DNA of 64,000 nt from Gluconobacter frateurii (GTDB taxonomy: Bacteria; Pseudomonadota; Alphaproteobacteria; Acetobacterales; Acetobacteraceae). Below the pieces are notes generated by a model that made no database searches, had not been told where the DNA came from, and worked only from the letters and a program-made list of their open reading frames with translations. Shown here one piece after another: positions 1,368 to 22,433 of the stretch (the first letter of the stretch is position 1; each line of letters starts with the position of its first letter). The stretch covers positions 868,001-932,000 of the forward strand of contig NZ_BEWN01000001.1 of assembly GCF_002723955.1 (NCBI RefSeq). Reading direction: 5' to 3'. Both the position numbers and the translations under genes were made by a program.

Positions 1368-2753
1368 TTATCCAGCCAGCGTGTCATAGAGGAGTTTGAA
1401 ATTCAGGATGAGGATCAACCCGGCCACGCCCCAGGAAAGAGCGGTCATAACGGGAGAGATCGTGAATTCTCCCATTTTGCGACGGTCGGATACGAACATC
1501 ACAAGAGGGATGACGGCAAAGGGAAGCTGAAGCGAAAGAATGACCTGACTGGCCAGCAGGAGGGTGCCGACACCATGGCCGCCATAGATCACTGTCACGA
1601 TAGCAACGGGAATGATTGCCAGACCCCGTGTCAGGAGGCGTCGGGCCCAGTGCGGAATATGTAGCCGCAGGAAGCCTTCCATAATGATTTGCCCGGCAAG
1701 GGTGCCGGTAACAGTCGAGTTGGTTCCTGCGGCAAGGAGGGCAAGGGCAAATAGTGTGGAGGCAATCCCTAAGCCAAGAATGGGAGACAGCAGCCGATAA
1801 GCATCCTCGATTTCTGCAACGTTTTGATGGCCTGTTTCATGAAATGCGGCTGCTGCTACGATCAGGATGGCGGCGTTGATGAACAGGGCTAGCATGAGGG
1901 CGATCGTGCTGTCCCAGGTTGACCAGCGAATTGCCTCGCGCCTTCCTGCAGGCGTGCGGTCATAAGCCCGGGTCTGGACGATGGAAGAATGCAGATACAG
2001 GTTATGTGGCATGACGGTCGCGCCGATGATGCCAATCGCAATGTAAAGCATTCCAGGTGTCGTAACGATCTGAGAGGTGGGAACCAGCCCTTTCAGAACA
2101 CCGGCGACAGGGGGGGCCGCGGCAACAAGCTGAACACCGAAGCAAATGGCGATGATGGACAGAAGTCCGATGACAAAGGCTTCCAGATATCGGAAACCTT
2201 GTCCCATAAGAAGTAGAACGATAAATGCATCGAGGATCGAGAGGATGGCCCCTCCCAACAATGGCAGGCCAAATAGCAATTGTAAGGCCACCGCCGTCCC
2301 AATGACCTCTGCAAGGTCGCAGGCAATGATGGCCAGTTCGCAGGCCAGCCATAAGACAATATTGATTGCCGGATGAAATTGATCGCGGCATGCTTGCGCA
2401 AGATCACGACCGGTAGCAATGCCCAGGCGGGCAGAGAGTGCCTGCAGCAGGATTGCCATCAGGTTGGAAAGCATGATGATACAGAGCAGGCTATAACCGT
2501 ATTGGGCCCCTCCCTGAAGATCCGTGGCCCAGTTACCAGGGTCCATATAGCCTACTGAAACCATGTACCCGGGGCCGACGAAGGCCAGAAAACGCTTCAG
2601 CCAGGACGTCTTCCCATCAGGGACATGAATGCTGGAAAAAACCTCCGGCAGGGAGGGGCGTGTCTCGTCCTCTTCACGTGAAAAACGCCATGCCGCAGTT
2701 TTGTGAGGCAGATCGCATGAGGACGTTTCAGGTGGGATGGAGTTTTCTGGCAT
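1368..2753 (-). CDS. mntH: NRAMP-family proton/manganese symporter MntH
   Basis: Imports Mn(II) (and some other divalent metals) across the inner membrane with protons. The hallmark MDPGNW motif in the first membrane segment and the [10 protein letters not shown] motif in segment 6, which form the metal site, are both present, with about 11 hydrophobic segments. The ATG at 2753 gives 461 residues; an in-frame TTG at 2768 would add five. An N-terminal hydrophilic extension of about 55 residues before the first helix is longer than in E. coli MntH. It is divergent from mntR, so Mn-dependent repression from the shared 2754-2897 region is likely (inferred from the family). Confidence 0.95.
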
Positions 2754-2780
2754 CAGAATGCCATTCAAACGTAAATCTTT

Positions 2781-2820
2781 AAATTATGCAATATGCTATA
2801 TTGATGAGATACTTCTCAAT
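2781..2820. promoter_or_regulatory. Candidate MntR operator/promoter region between mntH and mntR
   Basis: The divergent intergenic region holds the odd-centred inverted repeat GCAATATGC (2788-2796) and an imperfect TTGA..TCAA repeat (2801-2819) in AT-rich sequence. Position between a Mn importer and its DtxR-type regulator makes these operator candidates. No match to a known MntR box is claimed. Confidence 0.35.
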
Positions 2821-2897
2821 TTTTCAAAAGCTGGAGTTAAATGAAAGAATGTTTTATTCCCTTGTGAATAATTGATGACGAAGTTGGTTGGCAAACA

Positions 2898-3386
2898 GTG
2901 GAACGCAAAAAAAGCAGTCAGAAAGCTCTTTTGGACATGGAAACTCATTCAGAAGGATTCCGTGCCAACCGGGCTGCCCGACAGAAAGTGCTTGTTGAGG
3001 ATTATGTCGAGTTAATTTCCGATCTTTTGTCCGAAGGGCAGGAAGCTCGTCAGGTCGATATTGCCGGACGGCTGGGCGTGTCTCAGCCAACGGTTGCCAA
3101 GATGCTTGCTCGGCTCTCAGCGGAAGGGCTTGTGACCCAAAAACCCTACAGGGGAGTGTTCTTGACGGATGCTGGGCAGGCCATGGCCAATAAAGCCCGG
3201 CATCGTCATGGAATTGTAGAGGCTTTTCTTCTTGCGCTGGGCGTCAGTGAAGAGAATGCTCGCATTGATGCTGAAGGTATAGAGCATTACGTTGGGGCAG
3301 AAACGCTTGCCACGTTCGAACGCGCTCTTAATCAGGGCTTGGCAAAATTCATGAGGATTTCGCCACCAACAGGGATTGAAAGCTAA
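2898..3386 (+). CDS. mntR: Manganese-responsive regulator MntR (DtxR family)
   Basis: A Mn(II)-activated DNA-binding repressor controlling manganese import. The 162-residue protein has the DtxR-type winged helix ([20 protein letters not shown], about residues 51-70) and the C-terminal dimer/metal part with [10 protein letters not shown] and EGIEHYV, closely resembling the E. coli-type MntR without an SH3-like domain. The start used is GTG at 2898, which retains the N-terminal extension typical of this subgroup; ATG at 2937 is the alternative and no strong ribosome site separates them. Divergent neighbour mntH supports the assignment. Confidence 0.92.
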
Positions 3387-4310: not shown

Positions 4311-5129
4311 TCAACCGCAGGTTTCTATATTGATTCCATCCTGGATCAGAGACTTCCGAATGGATGGTTTGAGCTGAGAGTCCGTCAGGACAAGATCGAA
4401 CTCGTTTAGGGAGGCGAGCCGATGTAGGCCGCCTTTTCGGAATTTCGTGCTATCTACAAGTAGGACCGTTTGATCCGAGATTTGCATCAGCGCCTGCTTC
4501 ACTTTCACGACGTCCTGATCGTTTTGGAAAGCGGTCTCGTTATGGATGATCGATGTTGAGAGAAACATCGTATTGGCGCGCAGCGATTTGGCCGCCTGTT
4601 CACATACAAGACCGAAAAAAGCGTTGCGCGGTTGATTATAATCGCCCCCAAGGCAGATGAGTTTGAGGTTAGGGTAAGGGGAAAGGGCCTGAATAACTCC
4701 GACGGCGTTAGTAATAATTGTCAGGGGAGCGAGAGCCGGCAGAAGCGGAAGCATCGCTGCAACCGTTGTCGAGTCATCCAGTACCAGAATCTGTTCCGGT
4801 GTGATCATCGAGATGGCTCGATGGATGATCGACTCTTTTAGATCAGGTGCACGGGACTTTCGGAAATTGACAGTTTTCTGCGTTACGACGCGGTTTTTAA
4901 GAACAATGCTGCCATGAAGTTTGTCGATCAGACCCTGGGCGGCGAGGGCATGTGCATCCCGGTGGATGGTCATGCGGCTGACGCCAAACCGTTCGGACAG
5001 GGTCTCGATCGTGGCGCTTCCTGTTTCCAGAAGAACGTCAAGAATCTGTTGCTGCCTGGCGCTATTGTCCCGACGTTTGCTGAGAAGGACACCAGGAGAG
5101 GCAGTTGTCACGCCCGAACCATCAGTCAT
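4311..5129 (-). CDS. DeoR-family regulator of the polyol operon
   Basis: 272-residue transcriptional regulator. An N-terminal DeoR helix-turn-helix (ATIETLSERFGVSRMTIHRD, about residues 38-57) is followed by the sugar-phosphate-sensing domain. Its effector motifs are atypical: LDDSTT replaces the usual DxGTT-type loop, and GGDYN...AFFG replaces the usual glycine-rich GG...GP region. It is divergent from the polyol kinase, with palindromes in between, so it probably controls that operon. It is clearly related to the second DeoR protein at 10664-11488 (shared GG-x-YN, AF-x-G and MFxSTSxIH patterns), more than to GlpR at 18982. Confidence 0.88.
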   Translation of the reverse strand: MTDGSGVTTASPGVLLSKRRDNSARQQQILDVLLETGSATIETLSERFGVSRMTIHRDAHALAAQGLIDKLHGSIVLKNRVVTQKTVNFRKSRAPDLKESIIHRAISMITPEQILVLDDSTTVAAMLPLLPALAPLTIITNAVGVIQALSPYPNLKLICLGGDYNQPRNAFFGLVCEQAAKSLRANTMFLSTSIIHNETAFQNDQDVVKVKQALMQISDQTVLLVDSTKFRKGGLHRLASLNEFDLVLTDSQLKPSIRKSLIQDGINIETCG

Positions 5130-5279
5130 CTGTCAAAAAGATCCTTGTCCATCGGGAAGGCCGTTTCGCGGCAAAGGGACTTCTACATACCAGCGCTGAC
5201 GAGATTTGTAATGTTCGGATGTGCAGTTTGATGAGGTTTTCGGTGGAAATATCACACACGCAGCTCTGTGGGATAGAAA

Positions 5280-5293
5280 GTGATATTTATCAC
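5280..5293. promoter_or_regulatory. Candidate DeoR operator palindrome
   Basis: GTGATA-TT-TATCAC, a perfect 6-base inverted repeat, lies between the divergent DeoR gene and the kinase. Further TATCAC and GTTAT half-sites follow within 60 bases, suggesting several binding sites. Confidence 0.5.
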
Positions 5294-5330
5294 ATTGACG
5301 GCGATATAATAACACTTATATCACCTGATA

Positions 5331-5349
5331 ATAACATTTTTGGTGTTAT
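5331..5349. promoter_or_regulatory. Second candidate operator, ATAACA...TGTTAT
   Basis: Inverted repeat with 6-base arms and 7-base spacer, 54 bases upstream of the kinase ATG. It overlaps the TTG that opens the longest kinase frame, which argues that the frame upstream of 5403 is not translated. Confidence 0.45.
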
Positions 5350-5402
5350 CGGCTGATCATTCCGTGAAGGCCGATGGCGAGATAACGTCCGGAGGGCCTG
5401 TG

Positions 5403-6995
5403 ATGCGCCAGGATTTCACAATCGGGATCGACTGTGGTTCCACCACGACGAAGGCCGTTGTCTTTTCGAGAACGGGTGAGATCGTAGGGTTGGGCCGTCG
5501 GAGGGTTCCTCAACATATGAACGAGCCGCGCCACGTCGAACGCGATATGCATGAAGCATGGCGCGCAGTTATTGAGGCTGTCAGAGAGGCGCTTGAGAGC
5601 TCGGGCGTTGATCCCCGAGCCATTGCCGGCGTGGGCGTGACGGCACACGGTGATGGACTTTTTGTTCTTGACCGCTCAAGTGAGCCGCTAGGGCGTGGGA
5701 TCATGTCGCTCGACAGTCGCGCAGCGGAATTGCACGAGGAATGGAAGCAGGAGGGGTGTCTTGAGAAGATTGTTCCGATTGCGGGGCAGCGGCCTTATCC
5801 CTATTCGGCCAACACGCTTCTTGCGTGGATGAAGCGTCACCAGCCTGAACGGTATGGCGCGATTGGGACGGTTTTTTTCGCCAAGGACTGGATCCGGCTG
5901 TGTTTGACTGGCGAAATTGCTACGGATCTGACGGAAGCCAGTACGTCGTTCACGGACCTGTACACGCAGGACTATAGCGACAGCATCCTTGATGTTCTTG
6001 ATATCAGAGAGATCAGGAATGCGCTGCCACAGATGCGCCTTTCCTGTGATCGGGGCGGCGCGATTACGCGTGATGCTGCGGTTGCGACGGGACTTCTTGA
6101 AGGCACGCCAGTTTCGGTGGGCCTGCATGATGTGACGGCTGCGGCGGTGGGGCTCGGTTATACGCAACCGGGCGATCTCTCCATTACCGCGGGCACTTTT
6201 TCCATCAACGAGATTTTCCGGAGCGGTCCGGTCATTGGAGACGGATGGGCCTGCCGTGCCGGATATCGTCGCGGGTTGTGGAATTGCATGGCTATTTCGC
6301 CTGCGTCCTCCAGCAATCTCGAATGGCTGGCGCGCCTGCTGCTTCCAGAAGAAAAGGAAGCGGCTCAAATTCTGGCGGGAGAAGTTGACGCCAGGTTGGG
6401 TCGGTCCCGTGCGGAGCGTGCGGTTCCACTCTATCACCCCTTCCTGTTCGGGTCCCCTTACGAGGCTCCGGCCAGTGCGTCCCTTTTCGGGGTACAGTCA
6501 TGGCATGACCGGGCCGATCTGTTTCAGGCCATGATCGAAGGCACGATCTTCAATCATCGGGAGCATGTCGAGACCCTTCGTCTGACGGGTGCTGTTCGTC
6601 GCCTTGGCGTGTCGGGGGGAGGGAGCGGTCAACCGTCCATTGCCCAGATGTTCGCGGACATTCTTAATATGCCGGTGGAAATTTCCACCGTTCGGGAAGC
6701 CGGTGCGCTGGGAGCGGCACTGACAGCCAGTGTGGCCGTTGGTCTCCATGACAGTCTCGAAGACGGTGTTGCGGCACAGGATATTCCCATGACTGTCTAT
6801 CAGCCCGAGCCAGCCCGGACCCGGGTCTATGAGGGCATTTACCAGCGTTACGTTGCGCTCACGCAGGCCATGAAGCCGTTCTGGTCAGGCCTGTATGAAG
6901 GGGCAGCGGAAGGGCGGGCAATCGAGGCGAGTAATCAGGCGCCGGTCCCAAATTTTATTGTCGCGGCTGAAATGACGCAGGAGATCAGGCCATGA
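5403..6995 (+). CDS. FGGY-family polyol/carbohydrate kinase (EryA-like)
   Basis: ATP-dependent kinase of 530 residues. The N-terminal actin-like motif IGIDCGSTTTKAVV (about residues 7-20) and the C-terminal LGVSGGGSGQP...FADIL block are the FGGY signatures. The ATG at 5403 is chosen because GGAGG (5391-5395) sits 7 bases upstream; the longer TTG-initiated frame runs through an operator palindrome. It overlaps the next gene by ATGA, the start of a tight operon with a GlpD-like dehydrogenase, an aldolase-like protein and TpiA. It is distinct from the GlpK at 22434. By context it phosphorylates a polyol (erythritol, threitol or a pentitol are candidates); the substrate cannot be read from sequence. 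Confidence 0.88.
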   Translation: MRQDFTIGIDCGSTTTKAVVFSRTGEIVGLGRRRVPQHMNEPRHVERDMHEAWRAVIEAVREALESSGVDPRAIAGVGVTAHGDGLFVLDRSSEPLGRGIMSLDSRAAELHEEWKQEGCLEKIVPIAGQRPYPYSANTLLAWMKRHQPERYGAIGTVFFAKDWIRLCLTGEIATDLTEASTSFTDLYTQDYSDSILDVLDIREIRNALPQMRLSCDRGGAITRDAAVATGLLEGTPVSVGLHDVTAAAVGLGYTQPGDLSITAGTFSINEIFRSGPVIGDGWACRAGYRRGLWNCMAISPASSSNLEWLARLLLPEEKEAAQILAGEVDARLGRSRAERAVPLYHPFLFGSPYEAPASASLFGVQSWHDRADLFQAMIEGTIFNHREHVETLRLTGAVRRLGVSGGGSGQPSIAQMFADILNMPVEISTVREAGALGAALTASVAVGLHDSLEDGVAAQDIPMTVYQPEPARTRVYEGIYQRYVALTQAMKPFWSGLYEGAAEGRAIEASNQAPVPNFIVAAEMTQEIRP

Positions 6996-8701
6996 AATCC
7001 ATTTCCGTTGTTTCGGACAACACTGAATTTGATGTCGTCATCATTGGCGCTGGCATCAATGGCGCAGGGTTGTTCCGCGAACTGGCGTTACAGGGCGTCA
7101 GGACGCTCATTCTGGATCGGAGCGACATCTGCACGGGCGCGTCCTGCGCACCCTCCCGTCTGATCCATGGGGGCATTAAATATCTGGAGACAGGCGAGTT
7201 CAAACTTGTGGCGCAATCCACGCTTGAGCGTAACCTGCTTCTCAGGAATGCACCGCATGTGGTGCGTCCACTGCCGACGGTCCTGCCGATCCGCACATGG
7301 TTTGGAGGCATTGTTCCGTCTTTCCGCCGCTTCCTGAATCTGGGGGGCAAGATGACGGATCGGGGCGCGCTTGTTCTGGAAGCGGGGCTACAGATCTACG
7401 ATTTCCTGGGGCGTCGTGCCCGGGTCATGCCACGGCATTCTTTGTTCCTGAACCGTCGTACGCGCCGCGAATGGCCGCATATGGCGAAAGATGTTGTGGC
7501 GACGGCTCAGTACTATGATGCTGCCATCACGCAGCCTGAGCGGCTTGGCTATGAGTGTGTGCAGGACGGGCTTGAAACGGCTCCGAATTGTGAAGCCCTG
7601 ACCTACACTGCGCCTGTTTCGCTGCAGAATGGTCATCTTGTACTGCGTGATGTGCTGACGGGTGAAACGCGTACCGTGAAGGCCCGTGTCATCGTCAATG
7701 CCGGCGGCGCATGGATTGATCAGATCAATGCAGTTCTTGGTCTCCCAACGAAGTATATTGGAGGCACCAAAGGCTCCCATTTGCTTCTGAAGCACGATGA
7801 CCTGATTCGGGAACTGAAGGGGCGGATGGTCTATTTCGGCACGCCGGACGGGCGTATCTGCCTAGCCTATCCGTTCTTCGGTAATGTACTTGTGGGGTCT
7901 ACGGACCTACGGATTGAAGACCCGGACAAAGCCGTCTGCACGGATGAAGAGCAGGACTACATGCTCCGTATGCTGGCGGATCTGTTCCCCGGTTTTCATA
8001 TTGCCAAGGAACAGGTCGTCTACCGATACAGCGGTGTGCGACCTTTGCCGGCCACGAATGCGGCAGATCCGGGGGCTATCAGCCGAGATCACATCACCCA
8101 CGAAGACAACCTTGCAGGAACGCCTCTGCTCTCTCTCGTCGGAGGGAAGTGGACGACATTCCGAGGGCTGGGTGAAGAAGTAGCAGATCGTATTCTGACG
8201 TTGCTAGATTATCCCAGAAGTACGTCCACGAAAGAACTGGCCATTGGCGGAGGGCGTAGTTTTCCATCTGTGGAGCAGCACACGGCCTATCTGGACAGGT
8301 TGGCCATCTCCTGCGGAATACCGCGCCCCCGGGCTGCTGATCTACTGGATCGATATGGAACGCTTGCGCGGAAAATTGCCGCGTTCTGTCAGGAAGAGGC
8401 GGACGCGCCGCTGCGCACGCTGCCTTCATACACGCGTCGTGAGTTGGCGTTTATTGCCAGAAATGAGCTGGTGCGCCGACTGTCGGATGTTCTGTACCGG
8501 CGCACACCTATTGCATTGAGCGGACGTATGACACCGGACGTGGTGCAGGACGTCGCTCGTGTCGTTGGGGAAGAACTGGGCTGGAGCGAGCAGGATATTG
8601 TTCGTGAAGCTCAGGCTGCCTGGAAGGAAGGGCGTGAGCGCCACAACCTTCGGGGTGAATTCCCTCTCTCGTCTGAACCCCACGAAATTCTGAAGGCTTG
8701 A
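6992..8701 (+). CDS. GlpD-like FAD-dependent polyol-phosphate dehydrogenase (EryB-like)
   Basis: 569-residue flavoenzyme of the glycerol-3-phosphate dehydrogenase family. The FAD Rossmann motif G-A-G-I-N-G is at residues 19-24, the DAO-family SRLIHGGIKYLE block at about 53-64, and a C-terminal GlpD-type helical domain follows. Compared with the true GlpD at 19888 it has an insertion after the FAD region and a different active-site neighbourhood (CAPSRLIHGG versus SASTKLIHGG), consistent with another phosphorylated polyol. The expected reaction is oxidation of a polyol phosphate to a keto-phosphate with electrons to quinone (family inference). Translationally coupled to the kinase (ATGA) and 3 bases from the next gene. 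Confidence 0.87.
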   Translation: MKSISVVSDNTEFDVVIIGAGINGAGLFRELALQGVRTLILDRSDICTGASCAPSRLIHGGIKYLETGEFKLVAQSTLERNLLLRNAPHVVRPLPTVLPIRTWFGGIVPSFRRFLNLGGKMTDRGALVLEAGLQIYDFLGRRARVMPRHSLFLNRRTRREWPHMAKDVVATAQYYDAAITQPERLGYECVQDGLETAPNCEALTYTAPVSLQNGHLVLRDVLTGETRTVKARVIVNAGGAWIDQINAVLGLPTKYIGGTKGSHLLLKHDDLIRELKGRMVYFGTPDGRICLAYPFFGNVLVGSTDLRIEDPDKAVCTDEEQDYMLRMLADLFPGFHIAKEQVVYRYSGVRPLPATNAADPGAISRDHITHEDNLAGTPLLSLVGGKWTTFRGLGEEVADRILTLLDYPRSTSTKELAIGGGRSFPSVEQHTAYLDRLAISCGIPRPRAADLLDRYGTLARKIAAFCQEEADAPLRTLPSYTRRELAFIARNELVRRLSDVLYRRTPIALSGRMTPDVVQDVARVVGEELGWSEQDIVREAQAAWKEGRERHNLRGEFPLSSEPHEILKA

Positions 8702-8704
8702 GCC

Positions 8705-9688
8705 ATGAACCGTTACGAAGAAAAAATTGCACGCATGGTGGCCGGCAAGGACACGCGCTACGACTTTATTCTGGCAGACGCCAAGGACTCAGATATGGCC
8801 GCGGGTATCAGCGCCATGGGGCGCCGTCGCAATCCTCGGCCGGGCCAGTCTGCGTTTCGGACCAGACCGGAATATCTGTCTGAAATCCAGTCCATTATCC
8901 GTCAGGATATTGTGGACATCATGCTGACGTCTGCTTCCATTCTGGAAGACCTGCTGGAGCGGGACGCATTTGATGGAACGAAGGTGCAGACGGCTATTCG
9001 TGCAAACGATACGACCGATCTCTGGCGCGGGCGGGGCAGCGATTATCGGTCCCAGAAGTCAGTCCCATTTCGCTCAGCCTCCCTTGAACGTGCCCAGACG
9101 GGTCTTGGTCTGTATTCCATGACGTTCAATGGTGATGTCGAGCAGGATACGTTGGCTCTGGAAGAATTCGCCCGCTTCCGTGAAGAAGCCCAGATCCATC
9201 GGTTCTCGTATTTCCTGGAAGTTTTCAATCCTAATGAAAGTCGGATCGCGTCCAAGGATTATGGACTGTTCCTCAATGATATGATCACCCGTTGTCTTGC
9301 CGGACTACGAAAAGAGGAAAAGCCTGTTTTCCTGAAGGTTCCGTTCAATGGAGGGGAGGCGCTCAGTGAGCTCTGCCATTATGATCCGGCTGTTATTGTC
9401 GGGATCATGGGTGGCGGCAGTGGAACAACGCGCGATTGTCTTGAGCTGGTGCATCAGGCTCAGGGCAGCGGCGCGCGTGCTGCCCTGTTTGGTCGTAAGA
9501 TCGTGGATGCTGATGATCCGCTGCTTCTGATTGAAGCCATGCGCCGTGTGACGGATGGTGATCTGTCACCGAATGAGGCAACGCATTTCTATCATGACGG
9601 GCTGAGCCGGAAAGGCATTACGATGCTGCGTCCGGCCGAATCTGATAGTCTGGTGACGGAAAGCGTGCTGCTGGAACAGGCCGCCTGA
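8705..9688 (+). CDS. Class I aldolase-like TIM-barrel protein (FbaB/LacD/DeoC-like)
   Basis: 327-residue cytosolic protein. Its strands and loops fit a class I aldolase barrel: a candidate Schiff-base lysine K211 in FLKVPFNG and a phosphate-binding glycine loop GGGSGTTRD (236-244), then ARAALFGRKI and a DPLLLIEAMRRV helix as in FbaB/LacD-type enzymes. The first 120 residues are a less familiar N-terminal extension rich in Arg. It sits between the keto-phosphate-forming dehydrogenase and triose-phosphate isomerase, so cleavage of a keto-phosphate to dihydroxyacetone phosphate plus an aldehyde is the simplest role. The family name comes from motif memory, not a search; an isomerase or racemase role is possible. 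Confidence 0.65.
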   Translation: MNRYEEKIARMVAGKDTRYDFILADAKDSDMAAGISAMGRRRNPRPGQSAFRTRPEYLSEIQSIIRQDIVDIMLTSASILEDLLERDAFDGTKVQTAIRANDTTDLWRGRGSDYRSQKSVPFRSASLERAQTGLGLYSMTFNGDVEQDTLALEEFARFREEAQIHRFSYFLEVFNPNESRIASKDYGLFLNDMITRCLAGLRKEEKPVFLKVPFNGGEALSELCHYDPAVIVGIMGGGSGTTRDCLELVHQAQGSGARAALFGRKIVDADDPLLLIEAMRRVTDGDLSPNEATHFYHDGLSRKGITMLRPAESDSLVTESVLLEQAA

Positions 9689-9736
9689 TCTTATAAAGAT
9701 CCTTACATTCCAAGCTCTTCGCGTCTGTATGAGCAT

Positions 9737-9761
9737 TCTCCGCGTTGATCAGGCGCGGAGA
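9737..9761. terminator. Hairpin between aldolase and tpiA genes
   Basis: Arms TCTCCGCG and CGCGGAGA with a 9-base loop in the 196-base gap. There is no following T-run, so it is more likely an mRNA-processing or partial attenuation hairpin than a full terminator. Confidence 0.4.
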
Positions 9762-9884
9762 GTTGACTGGAAAATATCATTCATTTCGGAACTTCCTGTG
9801 TTTGGGATGTTAGGATTTAGCGTTAAAGCTGTCCTATGTTGAGCGATAAAGAATCGGCAATCGCTCTCTTTTGTGTGGAGATGA

Positions 9885-10667
9885 ATGGTGACTCGCAAGA
9901 CAGTCTGGATCGGCACGAACTGGAAAATGAACAAAGGGCCGGCTGAGGCTCTTGCGGCAGCCGAGGCCCTGAAGGGTTATCAACCGCCAGAGGGCGTGAA
10001 GCCGTTCATCATCGTGCCTTTTACGTCTCTTCAGGCTGTCGCGGATGTTCTGAAAGTTTCAGACGTTCGGGTGGGTGCGCAGAACATGCACTGGGAGGAG
10101 AGCGGCTCCTGGACCGGGGAAATTTCACCAGCAATGGTCAAGGAATGTGGAGCCGACATCGTGCTGATTGGTCATTCCGAACGTCGGCAGCATTTTGCTG
10201 AGACGGACTGGACTGTAAGTCGCAAGATGGCTGCGGCGTTGCGGCATGGTCTGCAGCCGCTTCTTTGCATCGGGGAAAGCCTTGATGAGTATGATTATGG
10301 CGTAACGGCGGAAACGCTGGCGCGACAGCTCAAGATCGCTTTGCATGATGTGGCAGTGAAAGATCTGCCCAATATTCTCGTCGCATACGAACCCGTCTGG
10401 GCTATTGGGGCAGGGGGGCGTGCTGCCGATACGGACTGTGTCGCGCGTGTTCATACCGGTCTGCGGCAGGTTCTGAATGAAATCGCCGGTCCGGAGATCG
10501 GGGCGCGTGTGCCGTTGCTCTACGGCGGCAGTGTCACCCAGGACAATGCGCGCAGCTATGTCGAGCAGCCAAATGTAGACGGCGTGTTCGTGGGGCGTGC
10601 TGGCTGGAATGTCCCTGACTTCGAAAAGCTGATCGACCGTGTCATCGAGGAAAGGGCGCCAGCATGA
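9885..10667 (+). CDS. tpiA: Triose-phosphate isomerase
   Basis: 260-residue TIM enzyme interconverting dihydroxyacetone phosphate and glyceraldehyde 3-phosphate. All catalytic residues are present: N12 and K14 (TNWKMN), H97 (IGHSERR) and E169 (AYEPVWAIG), plus the C-terminal YGGSV phosphate loop. Preceded by GTGGAGA. Placement in a polyol operon rather than with gapA/pgk suggests a pathway-dedicated copy. In Brucella and rhizobia a TpiA-like protein (EryH/TpiA2) of the erythritol pathway isomerises a tetrulose phosphate, so a C4 substrate is an alternative. Overlaps the following DeoR gene by ATGA. Confidence 0.92.
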   Translation: MVTRKTVWIGTNWKMNKGPAEALAAAEALKGYQPPEGVKPFIIVPFTSLQAVADVLKVSDVRVGAQNMHWEESGSWTGEISPAMVKECGADIVLIGHSERRQHFAETDWTVSRKMAAALRHGLQPLLCIGESLDEYDYGVTAETLARQLKIALHDVAVKDLPNILVAYEPVWAIGAGGRAADTDCVARVHTGLRQVLNEIAGPEIGARVPLLYGGSVTQDNARSYVEQPNVDGVFVGRAGWNVPDFEKLIDRVIEERAPA

Positions 10668-11488
10668 TCCCTGATCTTCTTCCTGGCAGTCGCGGTCTTT
10701 CAACGCGCCGACAGGCCGTGCTGGATTACGTGACGGAGCAGGGCTGCGTGCTGATTCAGGACCTGCTTTCGCATTTTGTCATGACGCGGGCGGCCATGAA
10801 CCGCGACCTGCATGCACTTGCCACGCAGGGGCTTATTCGCAAGGTTGGCGAAAGTGTTACGACACTCTCCAATGCCGTTGCCGCTAGCAGTATTACGCAC
10901 AGGGCTCGGCAGGCCGTTCAGGAAAAGCTTGGAATTACCGCGATTGCTGCGGGCTTGATCGAAGAGGGCGATACCATCGCCCTTGATGATTCCACGACGT
11001 CCCGGTTTTTGTCTGAGCGCCTGAGTTCGATCGGGCAACTCACGGTCGTGACCAACAGTCTTGGGATCAGCACCAAGGTGGGGCGCTCAAGGAATATTAA
11101 TCTGATTGCGCTGGGTGGGCATTATAATCCGACCTTCGATGCCTTCTTGGGGGTATTGTGCGAGCGGAGTGTCACGTCTTTGCGGATCAACACTCTGTTC
11201 ATGTCGACCTCGGCCATTCACGGACTTTCTGCTTATCATCAGGATGAAGATCTCATTAAGGCGAAGAGTGCGCTGATGAACATGGCAGATCGACGTGTTC
11301 TGATGGTGGATAGTCGTAAATTTGGTATCAGCGCGCTTAATCATCTCGCCAATCTCACGGATTTCGATACCGTAATAACTGATTCCGGGCTGTCTGATGA
11401 GGTTGGTGATCGCTTGGTGAGGGCCGGGATCAATCTTCGAATTGCCGATATGCAGGTTCTGGAAACTCCTATGGCGGTTATGGCCTGA
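10664..11488 (+). CDS. Second DeoR-family regulator, translationally coupled to tpiA
   Basis: 274 residues with the DeoR architecture, but the recognition helix region (MTRAAMNRDLHAL) is diverged from the usual SxxTIRRDL. The effector domain carries LDDSTT and GGHYN...AFLG, the same atypical pattern as the DeoR protein at 4311-5129, so the two look like sister paralogues sensing related ligands. Being the last gene of the operon it is probably made with the enzymes and gives feedback control. Whether it binds the same operators is unknown. Confidence 0.87.
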   Translation: MIPDLLPGSRGLSTRRQAVLDYVTEQGCVLIQDLLSHFVMTRAAMNRDLHALATQGLIRKVGESVTTLSNAVAASSITHRARQAVQEKLGITAIAAGLIEEGDTIALDDSTTSRFLSERLSSIGQLTVVTNSLGISTKVGRSRNINLIALGGHYNPTFDAFLGVLCERSVTSLRINTLFMSTSAIHGLSAYHQDEDLIKAKSALMNMADRRVLMVDSRKFGISALNHLANLTDFDTVITDSGLSDEVGDRLVRAGINLRIADMQVLETPMAVMA

Positions 11489-11633
11489 TATTTCCAGGCT
11501 GGTTTCTCGAAACTGTCTTTGGGTCTGGCTTTTTCGTGATTTTCAAACAGTAAAAAACATAAAACTGAACGATCTTTAGCTCGTTTTTTATTCAGTGGAT
11601 ACATCTGAAAAAGCGAGCCAAAGGATAACCTTC

Positions 11634-12572
11634 ATGATCAATCCGTGCGGCAACGGGCTTATTGCAGTCGACAAGAAGGCTGCTCAGGTTCTTTTTCTCG
11701 ATCCTGATACACTGGAGACGCTAGATCACATTGGGGGAATGCCGGTTTTGCCGCACGAACTGGCAATTGATCATGAACGCGGGCTGGCATTCATACCTGC
11801 CTTCGGAGATGGGGCACATGGAAACAACCCCAATCCAAACCATTTCGTTTCAGTAATTGACCTTAATGCCAGAACGCGCGTTGCAGATATTGATCTGACA
11901 CCACTGGAAGCTCCGCACACTTTGCGCTTTGGTCCGGACGGACTTTTGTATGTCTGCTGTGAAAACAGTTCCGCGCTTGCGGTAATTGATCCGGAAACCA
12001 AACGCGTGACGGCAGTTCTGCCGACGCATTCCAGCAATTCCCACAGACTGACCATTCTTCCCCAGCGCAAGCTGATCGTCACGGAGAATGAGGAAGATGC
12101 AACGCTGTCTGTCATTCGTATTGGTGACGATACCGTCAGGCGCACGATTATTCTTCCTGCACCTGTCGCGGGGATAGAGCATTTACCGGACGAAAAATTC
12201 GTCGTGGTGACAAATGCTTTCAAGCCATCCCTTTTTCTGATGGATGTGGATGCTGGAGAGTTGCGGCAGGAAATCGCACTCAAACACCATAGGAAAGCCG
12301 CGCAGATTGTTCGGCTTAGTCCAGACGAGCAGTGGCTTCTCGTTATTGGCGATTTCGAGCCTGTTGTGACCCTGATTAGCCTGCCACAGTGGGACCAGTA
12401 TCCTGTTGCAGTCGGGAACAAGCCGATGGATGCAGCCTTCAGGCCGGATGGAACGACTGTGATCGTTGCGAATGAAGATGATGGGACAGTGACAGAGATC
12501 GATCTTGCGACCCGGAAATCTATCAGGACGGTTAATGTCGGATCCGGGTGTGAGACGCTGGGGTTTTTCTGA
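11634..12572 (+). CDS. Cytosolic YncE-like beta-propeller protein
   Basis: 312 residues made of repeated blades with VI-D-ARTR-type motifs (VSVIDLNARTR, LAVIDPETKRV, TEIDLATRKS), typical of YncE/lactonase-like seven-bladed propellers. The ATG at 11634 follows AAGGATAA with good spacing; the GTG at 11595 would add 13 residues. Unlike most YncE proteins it has no signal peptide, so it should be cytosolic. It lies 145 bases downstream of the polyol operon in the same direction and ends in a strong hairpin. A 6-phosphogluconolactonase-like or scaffold role is conceivable; no active site can be assigned. Confidence 0.7.
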   Translation: MINPCGNGLIAVDKKAAQVLFLDPDTLETLDHIGGMPVLPHELAIDHERGLAFIPAFGDGAHGNNPNPNHFVSVIDLNARTRVADIDLTPLEAPHTLRFGPDGLLYVCCENSSALAVIDPETKRVTAVLPTHSSNSHRLTILPQRKLIVTENEEDATLSVIRIGDDTVRRTIILPAPVAGIEHLPDEKFVVVTNAFKPSLFLMDVDAGELRQEIALKHHRKAAQIVRLSPDEQWLLVIGDFEPVVTLISLPQWDQYPVAVGNKPMDAAFRPDGTTVIVANEDDGTVTEIDLATRKSIRTVNVGSGCETLGFF

Positions 12573-12602
12573 ATGGCCCACAAGTTATACGGGCCATTCA
12601 GA
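12568..12602. terminator. Bidirectional hairpin between convergent genes
   Basis: A perfect 12-base stem (TCTGAATGGCCC / GGGCCATTCAGA) with an 11-base loop covers the stop of the propeller gene and precedes the end of the convergent TonB receptor gene. No good T-run follows on either strand, but position and stem strength fit a shared terminator. Confidence 0.65.
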
Positions 12603-12616
12603 AAAGAATAGGTCGT

Positions 12617-14911
12617 TTAGAAATTGATAAGCGTCGTGACTTTGAAGCTCCGACCTGGTTGTGAGTAGTAGGATTTTGGAACGCTGATGCTGTCTGGAAT
12701 ATCCAGTGCGTTATAATAACGCTTATTGAACATATTATACATTCCGGCCTGAACGCGCAGGTTCGGGAAGAACTTGGGCGAGTACCAACCTGTCAGGTCG
12801 AAGATCGCGTAACCTGGTGTCTTGTTGGCATTGGACGCCATATTTTCGACCTTGTTTCGCGCAGCGGCAAACGTCGTCGAGAAGTTCGCACCCCAATGTT
12901 CCCGGTTATAGGCAACACCCACAATCCCGCGGAAGGGCGCTACGGAATTCAGGTGAACGTGTTCATCTGTGTCACGCCCGTCGGAATAGGCGAGGGAGGT
13001 CCAGACCTGCCAGTAATTGGCGAATGTCCAGTTTGCTCTGGCCTCCACACCATAGATACGGACGTGCTGACGATTAACATATTCAAAGACACCAAATGGA
13101 TAATAGCCGCTAATTCCTGCTGCCGCAGCCGTCGTGGTGATGGTGTCGATAAAATTGTGATAGTAATTGTCGAAGAATGAAATCGTGGCACCGCGCTTGG
13201 TATCTCCGTATCGGGCGCCGACTTCCCAGCCTCGACTGGTTTCAGGTTTGAGGTTCTGATTTCCAATCGAGACATAACTTCCTGTGCCACCATATGTTAG
13301 GTACATTTCGGTAGCAGAAGGTGCGCGGAAAGCCTCGGAGTACTGACCATAGAGTGTAAGGTTTTTCAGGACGCGGGCTTCGACCAGGACCTTTGGTGAA
13401 AAATGGGAGCCACTGGCACCGTTGGGTGTGCCGCTGTAAGCCGCATTGTTGACATAGGTCGGTGTGTATTGCGGGCTGCGCTTGTAGTAATCGAAGCGGA
13501 AGCCTGGAGTGATATGGAGCCACTCCATTTTCCCCACTCCAATCCGATCCTGCACGATCGCGCCCAAGTCTGTACCATGAACATCTGGCATATCTGATTG
13601 GTTAACGTGGAGGAAGCTGCAGGCATAAACGGTCGCTGTACAGTTATCTATGCCACCAGCGTACTGGCTCGTATCAGTAATATAAGCTTCTCCCCCCAGG
13701 GTGATGACGTGATGAAGTGGACCGGTAAATACATTGGAGGTGATTGAACCTGTTGTACCATACGACTGGACGGCAAGATTGCTGTTACGGTCATATTCGC
13801 CGATCGGAGCTGTAAGACGATTGGCGGCGGTATCGGTAATCATGTTGACCTTCTGCCAGTAGGCAATGAGATGGGCCTCACTGATGAATGCAGAAGGGCG
13901 CTCCGCCTTGTAGTCGTAGCTGCCGGAAACGCGGGACCGCTTGCTTTCTTCCAACGTGTGATAACGACTGTAGGTGGAACTGATGCTGCTCAATGTATTT
14001 TCGTTGTAATTGCGATCAAAGACTTCCCCTGTCAGCCCAAAGCGATGGCCGCCTTCGACATATTGGTGAATTTTTCCAAGAAAATTGCCCTGTGTGTAAG
14101 AGGCAGGATCCTTGTCAGAACGCGTTGTGCCTACACCGCCGGTACCTCCCATGTTTCCAGTCTGGCTTCCTGTTTGATAGCCGCCCTGAACAAGGATCAT
14201 TGTGTTATGGTAACGTCCTGCGAGAGCCTGATTGAGATATCCGCTTTCGCTAGACCCGTCGTAGGTCAGCTTTGTCAGGCCGCCGAAAACCTTATTTCCC
14301 GTCAGGATATCTTCCGGGTCCAGGGTTTTGAGGGAGACAACACCTCCGAGAGCGCCTGTTCCGAAAAAGCCGGAATTTGCGTTTTTGACAATGTCGATCG
14401 AACCAAGCGAATTAAAATCGTAGGATGATACACCGCCATCTACACCCCGGGCACCGTCATTAGCCCAGATCGTCCGTATACCGTCGATCGTGGTCAGAAT
14501 GCGGTTCTGATCCAATCCACGCATGTTAATGCTGAGATTGTTGTTGTTGTAATTTATCCCGGCATCTACGCGCCGTGCATAGTCTGAAATGCTGTCGATC
14601 ATGCGCGACTGAAGTGTTTTCAATGTCACCGTTGTCGTCATGACACGAGGCTTTCCGACAGCGCTATAGTCGGCGTCGGGATCAACTTTCATGGAATTGA
14701 TAACATCTGCCGAAGCCTGTCCGTGCACGTGGAGCGGACGGAGCTTTACTGTAGGGGTAGGGCTTGCTGCTGGTGCTGCTGGCGTTTCTTTAGGCGCTGC
14801 TGTTGTCTGAGCCTGTGCAGCAGGGAAGACTAAAAGTCCCCAGGCCAGGGCAGATGTAGCCAGCATTGCCTGACGTCGGTGACGTGTCAGAGCCGATATA
14901 TGTCGAATCAT
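12617..14911 (-). CDS. TonB-dependent heme/hemoglobin-type outer-membrane receptor
   Basis: 764-residue outer-membrane transporter. A signal peptide (about 1-35, ending AAQA) is followed by a Pro/Ala-rich linker, a plug domain (about 85-210, with INMRGLDQNRILTTIDG) and a 22-strand barrel ending in Phe (LINF), as required for BAM. It has the FRAP box (YSEAFRAPS) and a NQNL variant of the NPNL box characteristic of heme/hemoglobin receptors. It is divergent from the heme oxygenase-hmuTUV operon with a Fur box between, so it probably brings heme into the periplasm for HmuT. Confidence 0.88.
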   Translation of the reverse strand: MIRHISALTRHRRQAMLATSALAWGLLVFPAAQAQTTAAPKETPAAPAASPTPTVKLRPLHVHGQASADVINSMKVDPDADYSAVGKPRVMTTTVTLKTLQSRMIDSISDYARRVDAGINYNNNNLSINMRGLDQNRILTTIDGIRTIWANDGARGVDGGVSSYDFNSLGSIDIVKNANSGFFGTGALGGVVSLKTLDPEDILTGNKVFGGLTKLTYDGSSESGYLNQALAGRYHNTMILVQGGYQTGSQTGNMGGTGGVGTTRSDKDPASYTQGNFLGKIHQYVEGGHRFGLTGEVFDRNYNENTLSSISSTYSRYHTLEESKRSRVSGSYDYKAERPSAFISEAHLIAYWQKVNMITDTAANRLTAPIGEYDRNSNLAVQSYGTTGSITSNVFTGPLHHVITLGGEAYITDTSQYAGGIDNCTATVYACSFLHVNQSDMPDVHGTDLGAIVQDRIGVGKMEWLHITPGFRFDYYKRSPQYTPTYVNNAAYSGTPNGASGSHFSPKVLVEARVLKNLTLYGQYSEAFRAPSATEMYLTYGGTGSYVSIGNQNLKPETSRGWEVGARYGDTKRGATISFFDNYYHNFIDTITTTAAAAGISGYYPFGVFEYVNRQHVRIYGVEARANWTFANYWQVWTSLAYSDGRDTDEHVHLNSVAPFRGIVGVAYNREHWGANFSTTFAAARNKVENMASNANKTPGYAIFDLTGWYSPKFFPNLRVQAGMYNMFNKRYYNALDIPDSISVPKSYYSQPGRSFKVTTLINF

Positions 14912-14996: not shown

Positions 14997-15113
14997 ATTG
15001 AGATGGAAAAGCAAATCTGCCACATAGGAAGTGAACCGACTCTTCAAATCTGAAGAGAGGGTCTTGGTTTTTGAAAAATTATGTCTGTGGGAAACGAAAG
15101 GAAAACGCCAGTA

Positions 15114-15737
15114 ATGTGCGCTTTTTTTGCTGAAAACACGCTGTCATTCGCATTGCGCGAAAAGACAAAATCCATTCATGACCGGACTGATCATCGGATC
15201 ATGTCCATGGGGCTTTTCTCAAGTCTGAACGGTTACAGAATGTTCTTGCTGTCACAATATATTTTTCACCGTGACATAGTGAAAATTTACGAAGGCGAAA
15301 CATTAATTCGACTTCTCCCTGATTTAAAATCGCGCAACCGGTTCGCATGCATAGAAGCCGATATGCATGATCTTGATCTGCCTCAGCCGCCTGCCAGTAG
15401 CGGGGATGTGATTCCATTTAATCCCTCGGTTGCTGTTGGTTGGCTGTATGTTGCTGAAGGATCAAAGCTCGGCGCCAATATCCTGTCTCGCATGTCCTTG
15501 GCGCTGGGTTTGACAGAGAGTTTTGGTGCCCGGCATCTCGCGCCAGCTCCAGAGGGGCGGGGGCAGTCCTGGAAAGTGTTCAAGGCTGCGATTGATGGAG
15601 CGGAGTTGGACCGGACCATGTGCGTAAGCGCTGCGGAAGAGGCTTTTGCCCGTTTCTCCACATGTCTGGACCTTGCCCAGAAGCTGCTTGGAGAAGATGG
15701 AGCAGAAGAGGCAGCGAGAAGTCGGGTTGCGTTATAA
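15114..15737 (+). CDS. Biliverdin-producing heme oxygenase (HemO/HmuO type)
   Basis: Opens heme to release iron in the cytosol. About 207 residues from the ATG at 15114, which has AAAGGA about 10 bases upstream; the longest frame starts at 15081 (218 residues). The proximal-His region LREKTKSIHDRTD (His is residue 33 of the longer form) and the distal-helix motif VGWLYVAEGSKLGA match bacterial heme oxygenases of the PigA/HemO group. First gene of the plus-strand heme operon; its stop codon overlaps a second Fur box. Confidence 0.88.
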   Translation: MCAFFAENTLSFALREKTKSIHDRTDHRIMSMGLFSSLNGYRMFLLSQYIFHRDIVKIYEGETLIRLLPDLKSRNRFACIEADMHDLDLPQPPASSGDVIPFNPSVAVGWLYVAEGSKLGANILSRMSLALGLTESFGARHLAPAPEGRGQSWKVFKAAIDGAELDRTMCVSAAEEAFARFSTCLDLAQKLLGEDGAEEAARSRVAL

Positions 15738-15739
15738 AT

Positions 15740-15758
15740 GAGAATGAATATCATTTTC
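15740..15758. promoter_or_regulatory. Second Fur box, at the hemO stop / hmuT leader
   Basis: The 19-mer beginning GAGAATGAATATC matches the Fur consensus at 15 of 19 positions. It starts 2 bases after the heme oxygenase stop and 50-70 bases upstream of hmuT, so hmuTUV and the downstream gene may have their own iron-regulated promoter. Confidence 0.72.
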
Positions 15759-15811
15759 ATGGATTGCATATGAAACAGTGTTCGTTTTTGAAAAAGGAAA
15801 GAGCAGGCGTG

Positions 15812-16726
15812 ATGAGTAATCGTGGCCTTGATCGTCGTGGTTTTGTCACTCTGCTCTTTGCCGGGACACTCGTGCCGATCGCGGGGCATGCAGAAGGTCG
15901 CCTGATAACGGACTGTCGTGGACGTTCCGTTTCAGTAGGAAGTGCTTCCCGTATTGCCTGCATCGGCGGCACCATTACGGAAACACTTTACCAACTTGGA
16001 GTATCGGAACGAATTGTCGCGGTTGATACAACATCGACCTGGCCGAAAGAGGCACTCAAAGAGAAGAAATCTCTGGGGTATATGCGAGCCATTTCCTCCG
16101 AAGGTGTCCTGTCCGTTCGGCCGGATCTTATTCTGGCCATGAATGCGTCGGGCCCGGCTGATGCGATGGATCAACTTGTTGCTTCCGGTATCCCGGTTGT
16201 GTTCGTAGATTCTACTTCGTCGCCGGACGCTATTCTGAAGCGCACAAGATTTCTGGCCAAAGCGGTAGGGCGTGAGCAGGCCGGAGAAGAGATGTGCCGG
16301 GATATCCAGGCACATTTCGATGCGCTGGAACAGTGGCGAGCAAGCCATTCTGGTACTCCCAGAGTTCTGTTCGTCATGCGGATGACCAATAACCGACCGC
16401 TTGTTGCTGGTCAGGGAACGGCGGCTGACGCTGTGATCCGTCTCGCGGGTGGCATTAACGTCGGAGACAATCTGCAAGGCTACAAGCTGCTCAACACTGA
16501 ATCTCTCGTAACGCTGCGGCCGGATATCATTCTGACCATGAGCCAGGGCGGAGCAGAAATCCGTCAGGCTTTGCTAAGTGATCCCGGCTTCAGCATGACG
16601 CCCGCAGGTCAGAAGAAAGCGATCGTGGAAATGGAAGGCGAGCGACTTCTGGGGTTTGGGCCACGCACGCCTGAAGCTGCACTCGATCTGGCGCATATGA
16701 TGGTTAATGCAGGAAAGCCGGTATGA
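15812..16726 (+). CDS. hmuT: Heme ABC transporter periplasmic binding protein HmuT (Tat-exported)
   Basis: 304-residue class III periplasmic binding protein delivering heme to HmuUV. A twin-arginine signal, LDRRGFVTLLFAG followed by an AHAEG-like cleavage region, is visible in the first 35 residues, indicating Tat export. The mature part has RIACIGGTITETLYQLG, typical of HmuT/BtuF proteins. The ATG at 15812 is preferred; ATG at 15770 (14 residues longer) is possible. A longer frame reaching back to 15620 overlaps heme oxygenase and the Fur box and is not the gene. Overlaps hmuU by ATGA. Confidence 0.9.
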   Translation: MSNRGLDRRGFVTLLFAGTLVPIAGHAEGRLITDCRGRSVSVGSASRIACIGGTITETLYQLGVSERIVAVDTTSTWPKEALKEKKSLGYMRAISSEGVLSVRPDLILAMNASGPADAMDQLVASGIPVVFVDSTSSPDAILKRTRFLAKAVGREQAGEEMCRDIQAHFDALEQWRASHSGTPRVLFVMRMTNNRPLVAGQGTAADAVIRLAGGINVGDNLQGYKLLNTESLVTLRPDIILTMSQGGAEIRQALLSDPGFSMTPAGQKKAIVEMEGERLLGFGPRTPEAALDLAHMMVNAGKPV

Positions 16727-21468: not shown

Positions 21469-21505
21469 TCTTCTTCTCTTCAATTCTCATGTCGGATATC
21501 CGGTC

Positions 21506-22408
21506 ATGTCAGAGAATAAACGCTACCTTGGTGAACTCCTTGCTGAGTTCTTTGCTGTCGCCATCATCATCCTCTTCGGAGATGGCGTGGCGGCCATGTA
21601 TTCGCTTTACGATCCCAGCCCGTACAAGACGGCGTATTGGGGCGTCTGTATCGTCTGGGGACTGGCCGTCACGGTTGCGATTTACGCGACCGGTGCGGTC
21701 AGTGGGACGCACGCCAACCCAGCCGTGACGCTTTCACTCGCACTCTTCCGTGGGTTTTCATGGAAGAAGGTCGTGCCCTATATGGGAGCTCAGGTACTGG
21801 GTGGCCTGGCGGGTGCGGCATTGGTGTATTCGCTCTATGTGCCGGTTATTGACCACTACAATGCCGCTCATGGCCTGACGCGTGCGCTTGATGGCGGCTC
21901 TGCTGGCGTGTTCTTCACACACCCGGGCGATTTCATCAGCGTCGCTCATGCGTTCTGGGATGAAGCTGTTCTGACCGGTATTCTGGTGTTCGGTATTTTC
22001 GCCGTAACCTGCCAGTACAACACGCAGGCACCGCAGGCGAATTCCGGGGCGCTGATTATTGGTCTTCTGGTAGCCATCATCGGTGCATCTGCCGGTTATC
22101 TTGAGGCCTGGGCCATTAACCCGGCTCGTGACTTCGGCCCACGTCTGTTCTGCTTCTTTGCAGGGTGGGGACAGGCTGCCATTCCGGCACCGTCAAACTA
22201 CTGGTGGGTTCCGATTGCAGCACCCATGGTTGGTGGCCCAATCGGCGCCGCTATCTATCAGTACGGTCTGCGTCCCTTCATGCCGCGGGTGTCTGTCGTG
22301 ACGACGTCGTCCGTATCTGAAGCGCTAAACATGTCTGAACCCGTTCTTGTTGTCTCGAACCCTTCCATGCCTGCTTCAACAGGCCCCGTCATCGACAAGG
22401 TCTCCTGA
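21506..22408 (+). CDS. glpF: Glycerol facilitator GlpF (aquaglyceroporin)
   Basis: 300-residue MIP-family channel for glycerol uptake. Both half-helix NPA motifs are present (HANPAVTL and [10 protein letters not shown]), and the Asp after the second NPAR is the glycerol-facilitator marker. The ATG at 21506 begins [11 protein letters not shown], 37 bases after glpD; the longer frame from 21365 overlaps glpD and is rejected. The C-terminal 40 residues are a polar tail. Confidence 0.95.
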
Positions 22409-22433
22409 TCTGTCCGTTTCCGGAGTAAGTACC

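Follow-up and report, generated by a model that had tools for sequence, protein, structure and literature searches.

The subject of this study is a cluster of six genes at positions 4311 to 11488 of a 64,000-nucleotide stretch of the Gluconobacter frateurii genome (contig NZ_BEWN01000001.1; this whole stretch is referred to as the window), which might be a catabolic operon for a four-carbon (C4) polyol. It encodes a protein of 327 amino acids (aa), called ALD in the following, that possibly acts as the aldolase of the pathway. All six genes are intact and were confirmed in the order, on the strands and at the coordinates claimed by a first-pass annotation of the window, and the family names given there hold in Pfam and NCBIfam scans. 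The features of the locus are the following:

4311..5129, minus strand: DeoR1, divergent regulator of the DeoR/GlpR family, 272 aa (PF00455 126 bits, PF08220 51.7 bits)
5280..5293, no strand: candidate operator, the 14-bp palindrome GTGATATTTATCAC (sequence inspection; AT-rich repeats extend to about 5340)
5403..6995, plus strand: FGGY polyol kinase, 530 aa (PF00370 213.5 bits, PF02782 79.4 bits)
6992..8701, plus strand: GlpD-like FAD polyol-phosphate dehydrogenase, 569 aa (PF01266 131 bits, PF16901 83.5 bits)
8705..9688, plus strand: ALD, 327-aa protein with a class I aldolase fold, predicted to cleave a ketose 1-phosphate with release of dihydroxyacetone phosphate (DHAP) (LsrF profile match, AlphaFold2 model, Foldseek)
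9885..10667, plus strand: triosephosphate isomerase (TPI) family protein of the L-erythrulose-1-phosphate-isomerase clade with Asn12 and Gly240, 260 aa (best PDB match, tree, motif table)
10664..11488, plus strand: DeoR2 regulator, 274 aa (PF00455 131 bits)

The kinase and dehydrogenase genes as well as the TPI and DeoR2 genes overlap by 4 bases, 3 bases separate the dehydrogenase gene from the ALD gene, and the gap between ALD and TPI holds few repeats, which are imperfect or far apart. The mechanical open reading frame of the kinase starts with TTG at 5340. Because GGAGGG at 5391-5396 precedes the ATG at 5403, and because the frame upstream of this ATG is broken by two 2-base gaps in the related loci L005 and L006, the ATG at 5403 (530 aa) is most likely the start. 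Conservation of the gene set extends to other Gluconobacter, with matching loci in G. japonicus (96%) and G. thailandicus (95%), and the closest database relative of ALD is a protein of Gluconobacter frateurii (96%). The gene for DeoR1 is found in L003-L006 besides the window, and the palindrome at 5280..5293 is identical in 5/5 aligned loci; it is a candidate operator, and which protein would bind there is a matter of inference. Ratios of nonsynonymous to synonymous substitution (dN/dS) were computed for the kinase, the dehydrogenase, ALD, TPI and DeoR2 in comparisons with L003 (G. japonicus), L004 (G. thailandicus) and L006 (G. cerinus). They lie between 0.024 and 0.082, and between 0.024 and 0.038 for ALD, but are rough, since dS approaches or exceeds 1 in the majority of cases. 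In the comparison with L013, which is more distant, three of four genes gave values from 0.075 to 0.137, and the fourth yielded no ratio. Judged by its sequence, the operon of six intact and conserved genes is functional-looking, beyond what would be expected by chance.

ALD of the window matches no Pfam family, and its NCBIfam matches, to LsrF-type and ADH-synthase models, are weak. There is no match to PF01261, the xylose-isomerase superfamily of EryC. A Pfam scan of 58 members of the ALD family at E 0.01 brought up two families, each in one member, and PF01791, which we take to be the Pfam family of the class I (Schiff-base) DHAP aldolases, was absent from these matches. A profile built from the 58 members matches LsrF (E=4.6e-5), and K211 of ALD aligns with a lysine in the LsrF chains 3gkf and 3glc and with an alanine in 4p2v. 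The AlphaFold2 model of ALD is a TIM barrel (mean pLDDT 93.6) with K211 on the barrel strand 210-212. The top Foldseek matches of this model are LsrF and the archaeal class I fructose-bisphosphate (FBP) aldolase, and re-ranking by VIA-align gave ADH synthase, LsrF, FBP aldolase, sulfohexulose-1-phosphate aldolase, and the LacD-type and YihT aldolases. D20, D25, E172, K211, G236, G237, R264 and other residues are invariant in 58/58 members. Since the corresponding lysine of LsrF is presumably the Schiff-base-forming residue, K211 is the predicted Schiff-base lysine of ALD.

Two features of class I DHAP aldolases, the TIM barrel and the lysine on a barrel strand, are thus present in ALD, whereas membership in PF01791 is not. 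Because of the fold and the invariant K211, these data suggest that ALD is of the aldolase type, closest to the Schiff-base, DHAP-handling class I aldolases and outside the EryC superfamily, its activity being predicted. This agrees with the proposal of the first-pass annotation that an aldolase stands in place of EryC, and a check whether the 8705-9688 protein falls in a known isomerase family of the erythritol pathway came out negative. LsrF and the archaeal class IA FBP aldolase, which we assume to form the DhnA superfamily, share with ALD the barrel, the barrel-strand lysine and the conserved glycines and arginine in the last third. However, ALD is only 13-18% identical to them, is longer (327 aa), lacks a Pfam family and has motifs of its own (DAKD, FLEVFNP, GGG-GTTRD and FGRKI). 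Identity to the sulfohexulose-1-phosphate aldolase (PDB 8tnf) and the SFP aldolase YihT is 12-14%, and sulfo-sugar genes were not recognised at the locus. By these sequence comparisons ALD belongs to a new, previously unnamed subfamily of putative aldolases, which comprises at least 6,752 proteins at E 0.001 among 8,000 candidates scored. The function considered here would be the first testable one for this large family.

The domain families of the locus match those of GlpK, GlpD, TPI and DeoR/GlpR, so that one might think of a modified glycerol operon that has gained an aldolase. However, a full glpD-glpF-glpK operon is located only 8 kb away in the same window (19888-23984), and the kinase and the dehydrogenase are 29% and 33% identical, respectively, to these glp counterparts of the same genome. 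A glycerol operon was rejected as highly improbable, the NCBIfam cut-offs not being reached (146.8 vs 590.35 bits for GlpK, 276.9 vs 360 bits for GlpD). The best solved relative of the window kinase is the autoinducer-2 kinase. A role in autoinducer-2 processing was rejected despite the autoinducer-2 kinase and LsrF relatives, since the kinase scores far below the autoinducer-2 kinase cut-off (167.3 of 528 bits), and a GlpD-like enzyme has no role in this process that we are aware of.

The likeness to EryA and EryB noted in the first-pass annotation does not amount to identity. In the kinase tree (40 rows) the four EryA rows form a clade of their own (100, starred) and the window kinase is placed elsewhere, and in the dehydrogenase tree (42 rows) EryB groups with canonical GlpD (100, starred) on one side and the window protein stands on the other; long branches were flagged in both trees, most in that of the kinases. 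The sister of the acetic-acid-bacterial pair is a pair from rhizobia and Paracoccus (97, starred, for the dehydrogenase; 89 for the kinase). Five loci of this sister pair were opened. In L070 and L072, EryA is divergent from a shared transporter, and three proteins of L073 (an ABC ATPase, a DUF2291 protein and a sugar-binding regulator) recur under the same accessions in L137, an ery locus from a different strain; L071 stands alone and L032 carries ALD. Since the sister pair is linked to erythritol genes in three of the five, its sequence relationship points to a C4 polyol as substrate.

The TPI of the window possesses the catalytic motifs of the family (NWKMN, GHSERR and YEPVW, to whose residues roles are assigned in TPI) in the forms GTNWKMNK, IGHSERR and YEPVWAIG. 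Its best PDB match is the L-erythrulose-1-phosphate isomerase 11ef (229.7 bits), and the best entry named TPI reaches 194.8 bits. A tree of 57 rows, in which long branches were flagged, contains two starred groups, the first of canonical TpiA and the second of erythrulose-type enzymes. The window TPI belongs to the second (99, starred), separate from the starred clade with the genome's own TpiA, and does not descend from within the canonical TpiA clade; a second TPI gene of this genome is located on another contig. The window protein would therefore be wrongly seen as a plain TpiA: the TPI family and motifs given in the first-pass annotation stand, but the lineage is, by sequence, that of the L-erythrulose-1-phosphate isomerases. 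The automatic label 'TpiA' can conceal another lineage.

Residue 12 of the window TPI is, as we assume, equivalent to the catalytic Asn11 of textbook TPI. Positions 12 and 240 are Ser and Ala in 20/20 Ser-type acetic-acid-bacterial rows and 5/5 ery-locus rows, Asn and Ser in 14/14 canonical TPI rows, and Asn and Gly in all five rows of the window clade and all five rows of a second Gluconobacter set. These counts are exclusive of L016, L134, L138 and L139 (Ser and Ala too), of L113 (long and divergent, its Ser standing in an altered motif) and of the three long canonical rows L143, L151 and L155. The window TPI agrees with the EryH/LerI-type isomerases in its clade only, the serine of this clade being changed to asparagine. 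Where the Ser-type rows are conserved, 18 columns are changed in the window clade and 4 in the second set. Two of these columns, 12 and 240, are common to both, with the same residues each time (S12N, A240G). The tree prefers two origins of the Asn type, and a single origin was rejected in an approximately unbiased (AU) test with the two trait columns masked and L016 omitted (p 0.0096, 37 rows); canonical and other long rows had been removed from this row set as well as from the one with the trait columns kept. It is possible, that the serine at position 12 makes room for the extra carbon. The Asn-type TPI, as far as residues can tell, is likely a triosephosphate isomerase again, following a switch of substrate. 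The paired Ser- and Asn-type enzymes offer a small ready-made test of what determines triose versus tetrulose isomerase activity.

The gene content of the relatives is in line with this distinction. Among 16 Gluconobacter genomes, ALD is present in eight and RpiB in six, and the latter are the same six that possess a Ser-type TPI (typing covered 30 TPI loci, of which that of G250, labelled canonical, gave no parsed motif). In G686 the single TPI match of the genome is of the Asn type, and a distant ALD (48%) is located elsewhere on the contig. Solo pairs of an Asn-type TPI and DeoR2 occur without an adjoining aldolase in L168-L172, that is in the five Gluconobacter genomes G680, G679, G686, G683 and G685, and therefore the Asn-type TPI does not need ALD. 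DeoR2 adjoins the operon TPI in many loci, and further TPI-DeoR2 pairs are found up to L173 and in L209.

In 19 distinct loci (11 from Gluconobacter, eight from other genera) we read a longer operon, in the order kinase, GlpD-like dehydrogenase, ALD, TPI, sometimes DeoR2, RpiB, binding protein, ABC ATPase, permease and DAK; in L012 no DAK was seen up to the contig end. At this place the loci of the window type (the window and L003 to L006) carry no RpiB, transporter or DAK; the next gene encodes a beta-propeller protein. The operon is split in two in G. japonicus and G. thailandicus, and in G681 (L173, L174) and G218 (L083, L209) a separate contig holds the missing half, accompanied by a TPI and a DeoR2 of its own. 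Hence the cluster is not self-contained, as the first-pass annotation had it: from these comparisons the window copy appears as one half, the aldolase half, of a longer operon that is ancestral and occurs in several genera. The lack of EryC and EryI remarked on there is real and extends beyond the locus, since the whole window genome gave no match to PF02502 (RpiB) and none of its three AP_endonuc_2 loci matches the Marinovum EryC at 1e-5. Compared with the Shinella reference for the operon DAK, the sole Dak1 gene of this genome shows 35% identity over 254 residues.

The other half of the operon, with DAK kinase, LerI-clade TPI and RpiB, resembles the tetritol pathway of Mycolicibacterium, whose LerK we take to be a DAK-family protein; in contrast to G681 and G218, which keep it on another contig, the window genome lacks this half. 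The pathway names LerK, LerI and DerI are used in the portions of PMC10733421 and PMC12780249 seen. The EryABC-EryH-EryI system of Brucella and rhizobia is similar in its polyol kinase, its GlpD-superfamily dehydrogenase and a TPI in the EryH/TpiB clade, and, with regard to the wider operon, in the EryI-type RpiB and the ABC transporter. It differs in that the kinase and dehydrogenase of the window are outside the EryA and EryB clades, an aldolase stands where EryC stands, and RpiB is absent from the window genome.

One could imagine that ALD replaces EryC, interconverting D- and L-erythrulose 1-phosphate by a reversible retro-aldol/aldol reaction and feeding LerI and RpiB to give erythrose 4-phosphate. 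In the scheme given in the excerpted text of PMC10733421, EryC is D-erythrulose-1-phosphate 3-epimerase, acting between the D- and L-forms, and LerI and DerI are the next isomerases. ALD stands behind kinase and dehydrogenase in the full operon like EryC in ery loci, with a LerI-type TPI and RpiB next to it. However, the window clade has kept ALD (with the low dN/dS values given above) together with a TPI bearing the triose-type Asn, in a genome without RpiB, and ALD is also present in loci with neither TPI nor RpiB in view. Because RpiB is gone from the genome and the TPI of the window clade is of the Asn type, we rank this below cleavage of a C4 substrate by ALD and regard it as improbable.

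ALD was detected at E 1e-20, the window genome included, in 38/299 genomes sampled from the family and in 7/385 sampled from the class. After removal of the duplicates L083, L084, L092 and L114, and with the identical L021 and L122 both kept, 68 rows were available for the inspection of neighbouring kinases, which were labelled by BLAST matches above 60 bits to a small reference set within 4.5 kb on both strands. A labelled sugar kinase occurs at this distance, on either strand, in 60 of them: GlpD-like plus FGGY in 27 rows, PfkB in 16, FGGY plus PfkB in six, DAK in six, FGGY in four and DhaK/DhaL in one. In three of the four FGGY rows (L028, L033, L111) a GlpD-like gene is located farther away in the same cluster, and among the eight unlabelled rows the one scanned, L023 from Mesorhizobium, has an ADP-dependent phosphofructokinase/glucokinase-like gene (8321-9589, PF04587) divergent from ALD. 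This variety of kinases fits an enzyme that would act on phosphorylated ketones and release a common product, taken as DHAP.

As to related arrangements, L103, L104 and L105, from 1.4 Mb genomes of the same class, encode an ALD homologue (44-46%) with FGGY- and PfkB-labelled genes on the opposite strand and a ribose-type transporter, and L106-L108 present one cluster with FGGY, ALD and PfkB. In L074 and L075 (Rhizobium and Sinorhizobium meliloti pSymB) a GlpD-like gene occurs with a different class I aldolase of 280 aa, an aldo/keto reductase and a GMC oxidoreductase; the FGGY kinase of this second kinase/dehydrogenase/aldolase set is annotated in L074 only, not in L075.

Some of these neighbourhoods would suit a C5 or C6 polyol, for which the same machinery would cleave a ketose 1-phosphate to DHAP and glycolaldehyde or glyceraldehyde. 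An aldehyde dehydrogenase gene is located directly behind ALD in L030 from Vibrio and about 5 kb away in L031 from Lichenicola, a ribulokinase-type FGGY adjoins ALD in L106 (508.8 bits, cut-off 428), and 8tnf, a ketose-1-phosphate aldolase among the structural matches of ALD, takes a hexulose derivative. However, the Vibrio and L106 aldolases belong to other ALD branches, the operons of acetic acid bacteria contain C4-type isomerases, and the nearest kinase/dehydrogenase relatives are those at erythritol loci in three of five cases, so that we consider a longer polyol unlikely.

Five DAK-linked aldolases are nested inside the acetic-acid-bacterial ALD clade of 30 rows. In L093, the one of the five scanned for this gene, ALD and DAK adjoin a fusion of D-erythronate dehydrogenase and AP_endonuc_2 (NF043036 353.5 bits, cut-off 325; 9600-11612 and neighbours). 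At such erythronate loci one would usually expect a 3-oxotetronate-phosphate decarboxylase, and by its genes the set looks like an erythronate route with ALD replacing it. The neighbourhood of L093 also holds an amidohydrolase and an OprB porin, and L091 holds ALD, DAK and an amidohydrolase.

It is conceivable from this arrangement that the window operon serves a tetronic acid: the kinase would form erythronate or threonate 4-phosphate, the GlpD-like enzyme 3-oxotetronate 4-phosphate, and ALD, as a Schiff-base decarboxylase, DHAP and CO2. A toxic aldehyde would be avoided, and the oxidised position would share its -CHOH-CH2OP pattern with glycerol 3-phosphate. In contrast, the sister kinase/dehydrogenase pair is tied to polyol (ery) genes, again in three of the five loci opened, and the named top structural relatives of ALD are mostly aldolases; we therefore judge this quite unlikely.

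Cleavage of a C4 polyol phosphate is the reading we prefer, with a confidence that stays somewhat short of even, and threitol or erythritol would be the most likely substrate. From the computed gene content, families, fold, invariant lysine, TPI lineage and absence of RpiB we infer the reactions, the C4 substrate, the aldehyde and the regulation as follows. The FGGY kinase would convert the tetritol to tetritol 1-phosphate, and the GlpD-like FAD enzyme would oxidise the carbon adjoining the phosphate-bearing one, giving erythrulose 1-phosphate. Via a Schiff base at K211, ALD would cleave the latter to DHAP and a one-carbon aldehyde, which for a C4 substrate would be formaldehyde. The TPI, re-evolved from an L-erythrulose-1-phosphate isomerase, would convert DHAP to glyceraldehyde 3-phosphate, and the two DeoR regulators would exert control. 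The ancestral operon would also have had a carbon-conserving branch (DAK kinase, Ser-type isomerase and RpiB, leading to erythrose 4-phosphate) that was lost in this genome. The route from polyol through polyol phosphate, keto-phosphate and aldol cleavage to triose phosphates, as first proposed, is thereby retained as far as the set of kinase, FAD dehydrogenase, aldolase and TPI is concerned, but not with regard to EryA/EryB identity, self-containment and a plain TpiA.

The C4 substrate is suggested because the wider operon holds a LerI-clade TPI, a DAK kinase and an RpiB near the D-erythrulose-4-phosphate isomerase model, and because the DAK-linked aldolase of L093, which falls within the ALD clade of acetic acid bacteria, has a D-erythronate dehydrogenase as its neighbour. 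The exit via DHAP in the window clade is suggested because of S12N and A240G, the missing RpiB, the co-occurrence of RpiB with the Ser-type TPI, and the sole, Asn-type TPI of G686.

Several points weigh against this interpretation. Other ALD branches stand with kinases of other families, and therefore the substrates of ALD may vary. A formaldehyde-losing aldolase looks wasteful if ancestral LerI and RpiB took the same erythrulose phosphate, and among the operon genes none was recognised as serving to handle formaldehyde. The window copy also has no transporter gene next to it. With 238 vs 240 bits, the RpiB of L013 falls slightly short of the curated cut-off of the D-erythrulose-4-phosphate isomerase model. 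With the two trait columns kept, a single origin of the Asn-type TPI was not rejected (AU p 0.212, 38 rows). The 16 Gluconobacter genomes are relatives and not independent cases, and the Ameyamaea-type L092 has a Ser-type TPI, while RpiB was not found on its contig, the part searched.

The more specific claim, that ALD is a dedicated erythrulose-1-phosphate aldolase taking tetritols to DHAP and a C1 unit in acetic acid bacteria, and that a LerI-type isomerase reverted to a TPI by two active-site substitutions twice in Gluconobacter, we put forward more hesitantly, as a doubtful but attractive possibility. The reaction proposed for ALD is that of the ketotetrose-phosphate aldolase (EC 4.1.2.2, erythrulose-1-phosphate synthase). 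The excerpts of PMC10733421 describe this as a side activity that fructose-bisphosphate aldolase and the fuculose- and rhamnulose-phosphate aldolases have, and name no dedicated gene. If the claim is true, the ALD gene would be dedicated to this activity. According to the same excerpts, for Propionibacterium pentosaceum and Sinorhizobium meliloti it was suggested that the synthase works towards cleavage, and more such aldolases are wanted for a synthetic formaldehyde cycle, their co-occurrence with erythrulose-phosphate isomerases being called 'particularly interesting' (PMC10733421). The operons of acetic acid bacteria would be such a case. Among the matches listed, there was no literature on this operon, on ALD or on the use of threitol by these bacteria. 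Rhizobial ery loci have been surveyed and Acidiphilium is named there (PMC3599248), and words beginning with Gluconobacter or Acetobacter do not occur in its main text.

The surroundings of the cluster contain further genes. Downstream of DeoR2, in the ranges 11595-14911 and 15081-16726 of the window, there is a beta-propeller gene, followed by genes that by sequence alone resemble a TonB receptor, a heme oxygenase and a binding protein, possibly a heme or iron uptake set. On the other side of the cluster, at 1368-3386, an NRAMP-type-looking transporter gene is divergent from MntR (PRK11050 226.7 bits, cut-off 153).

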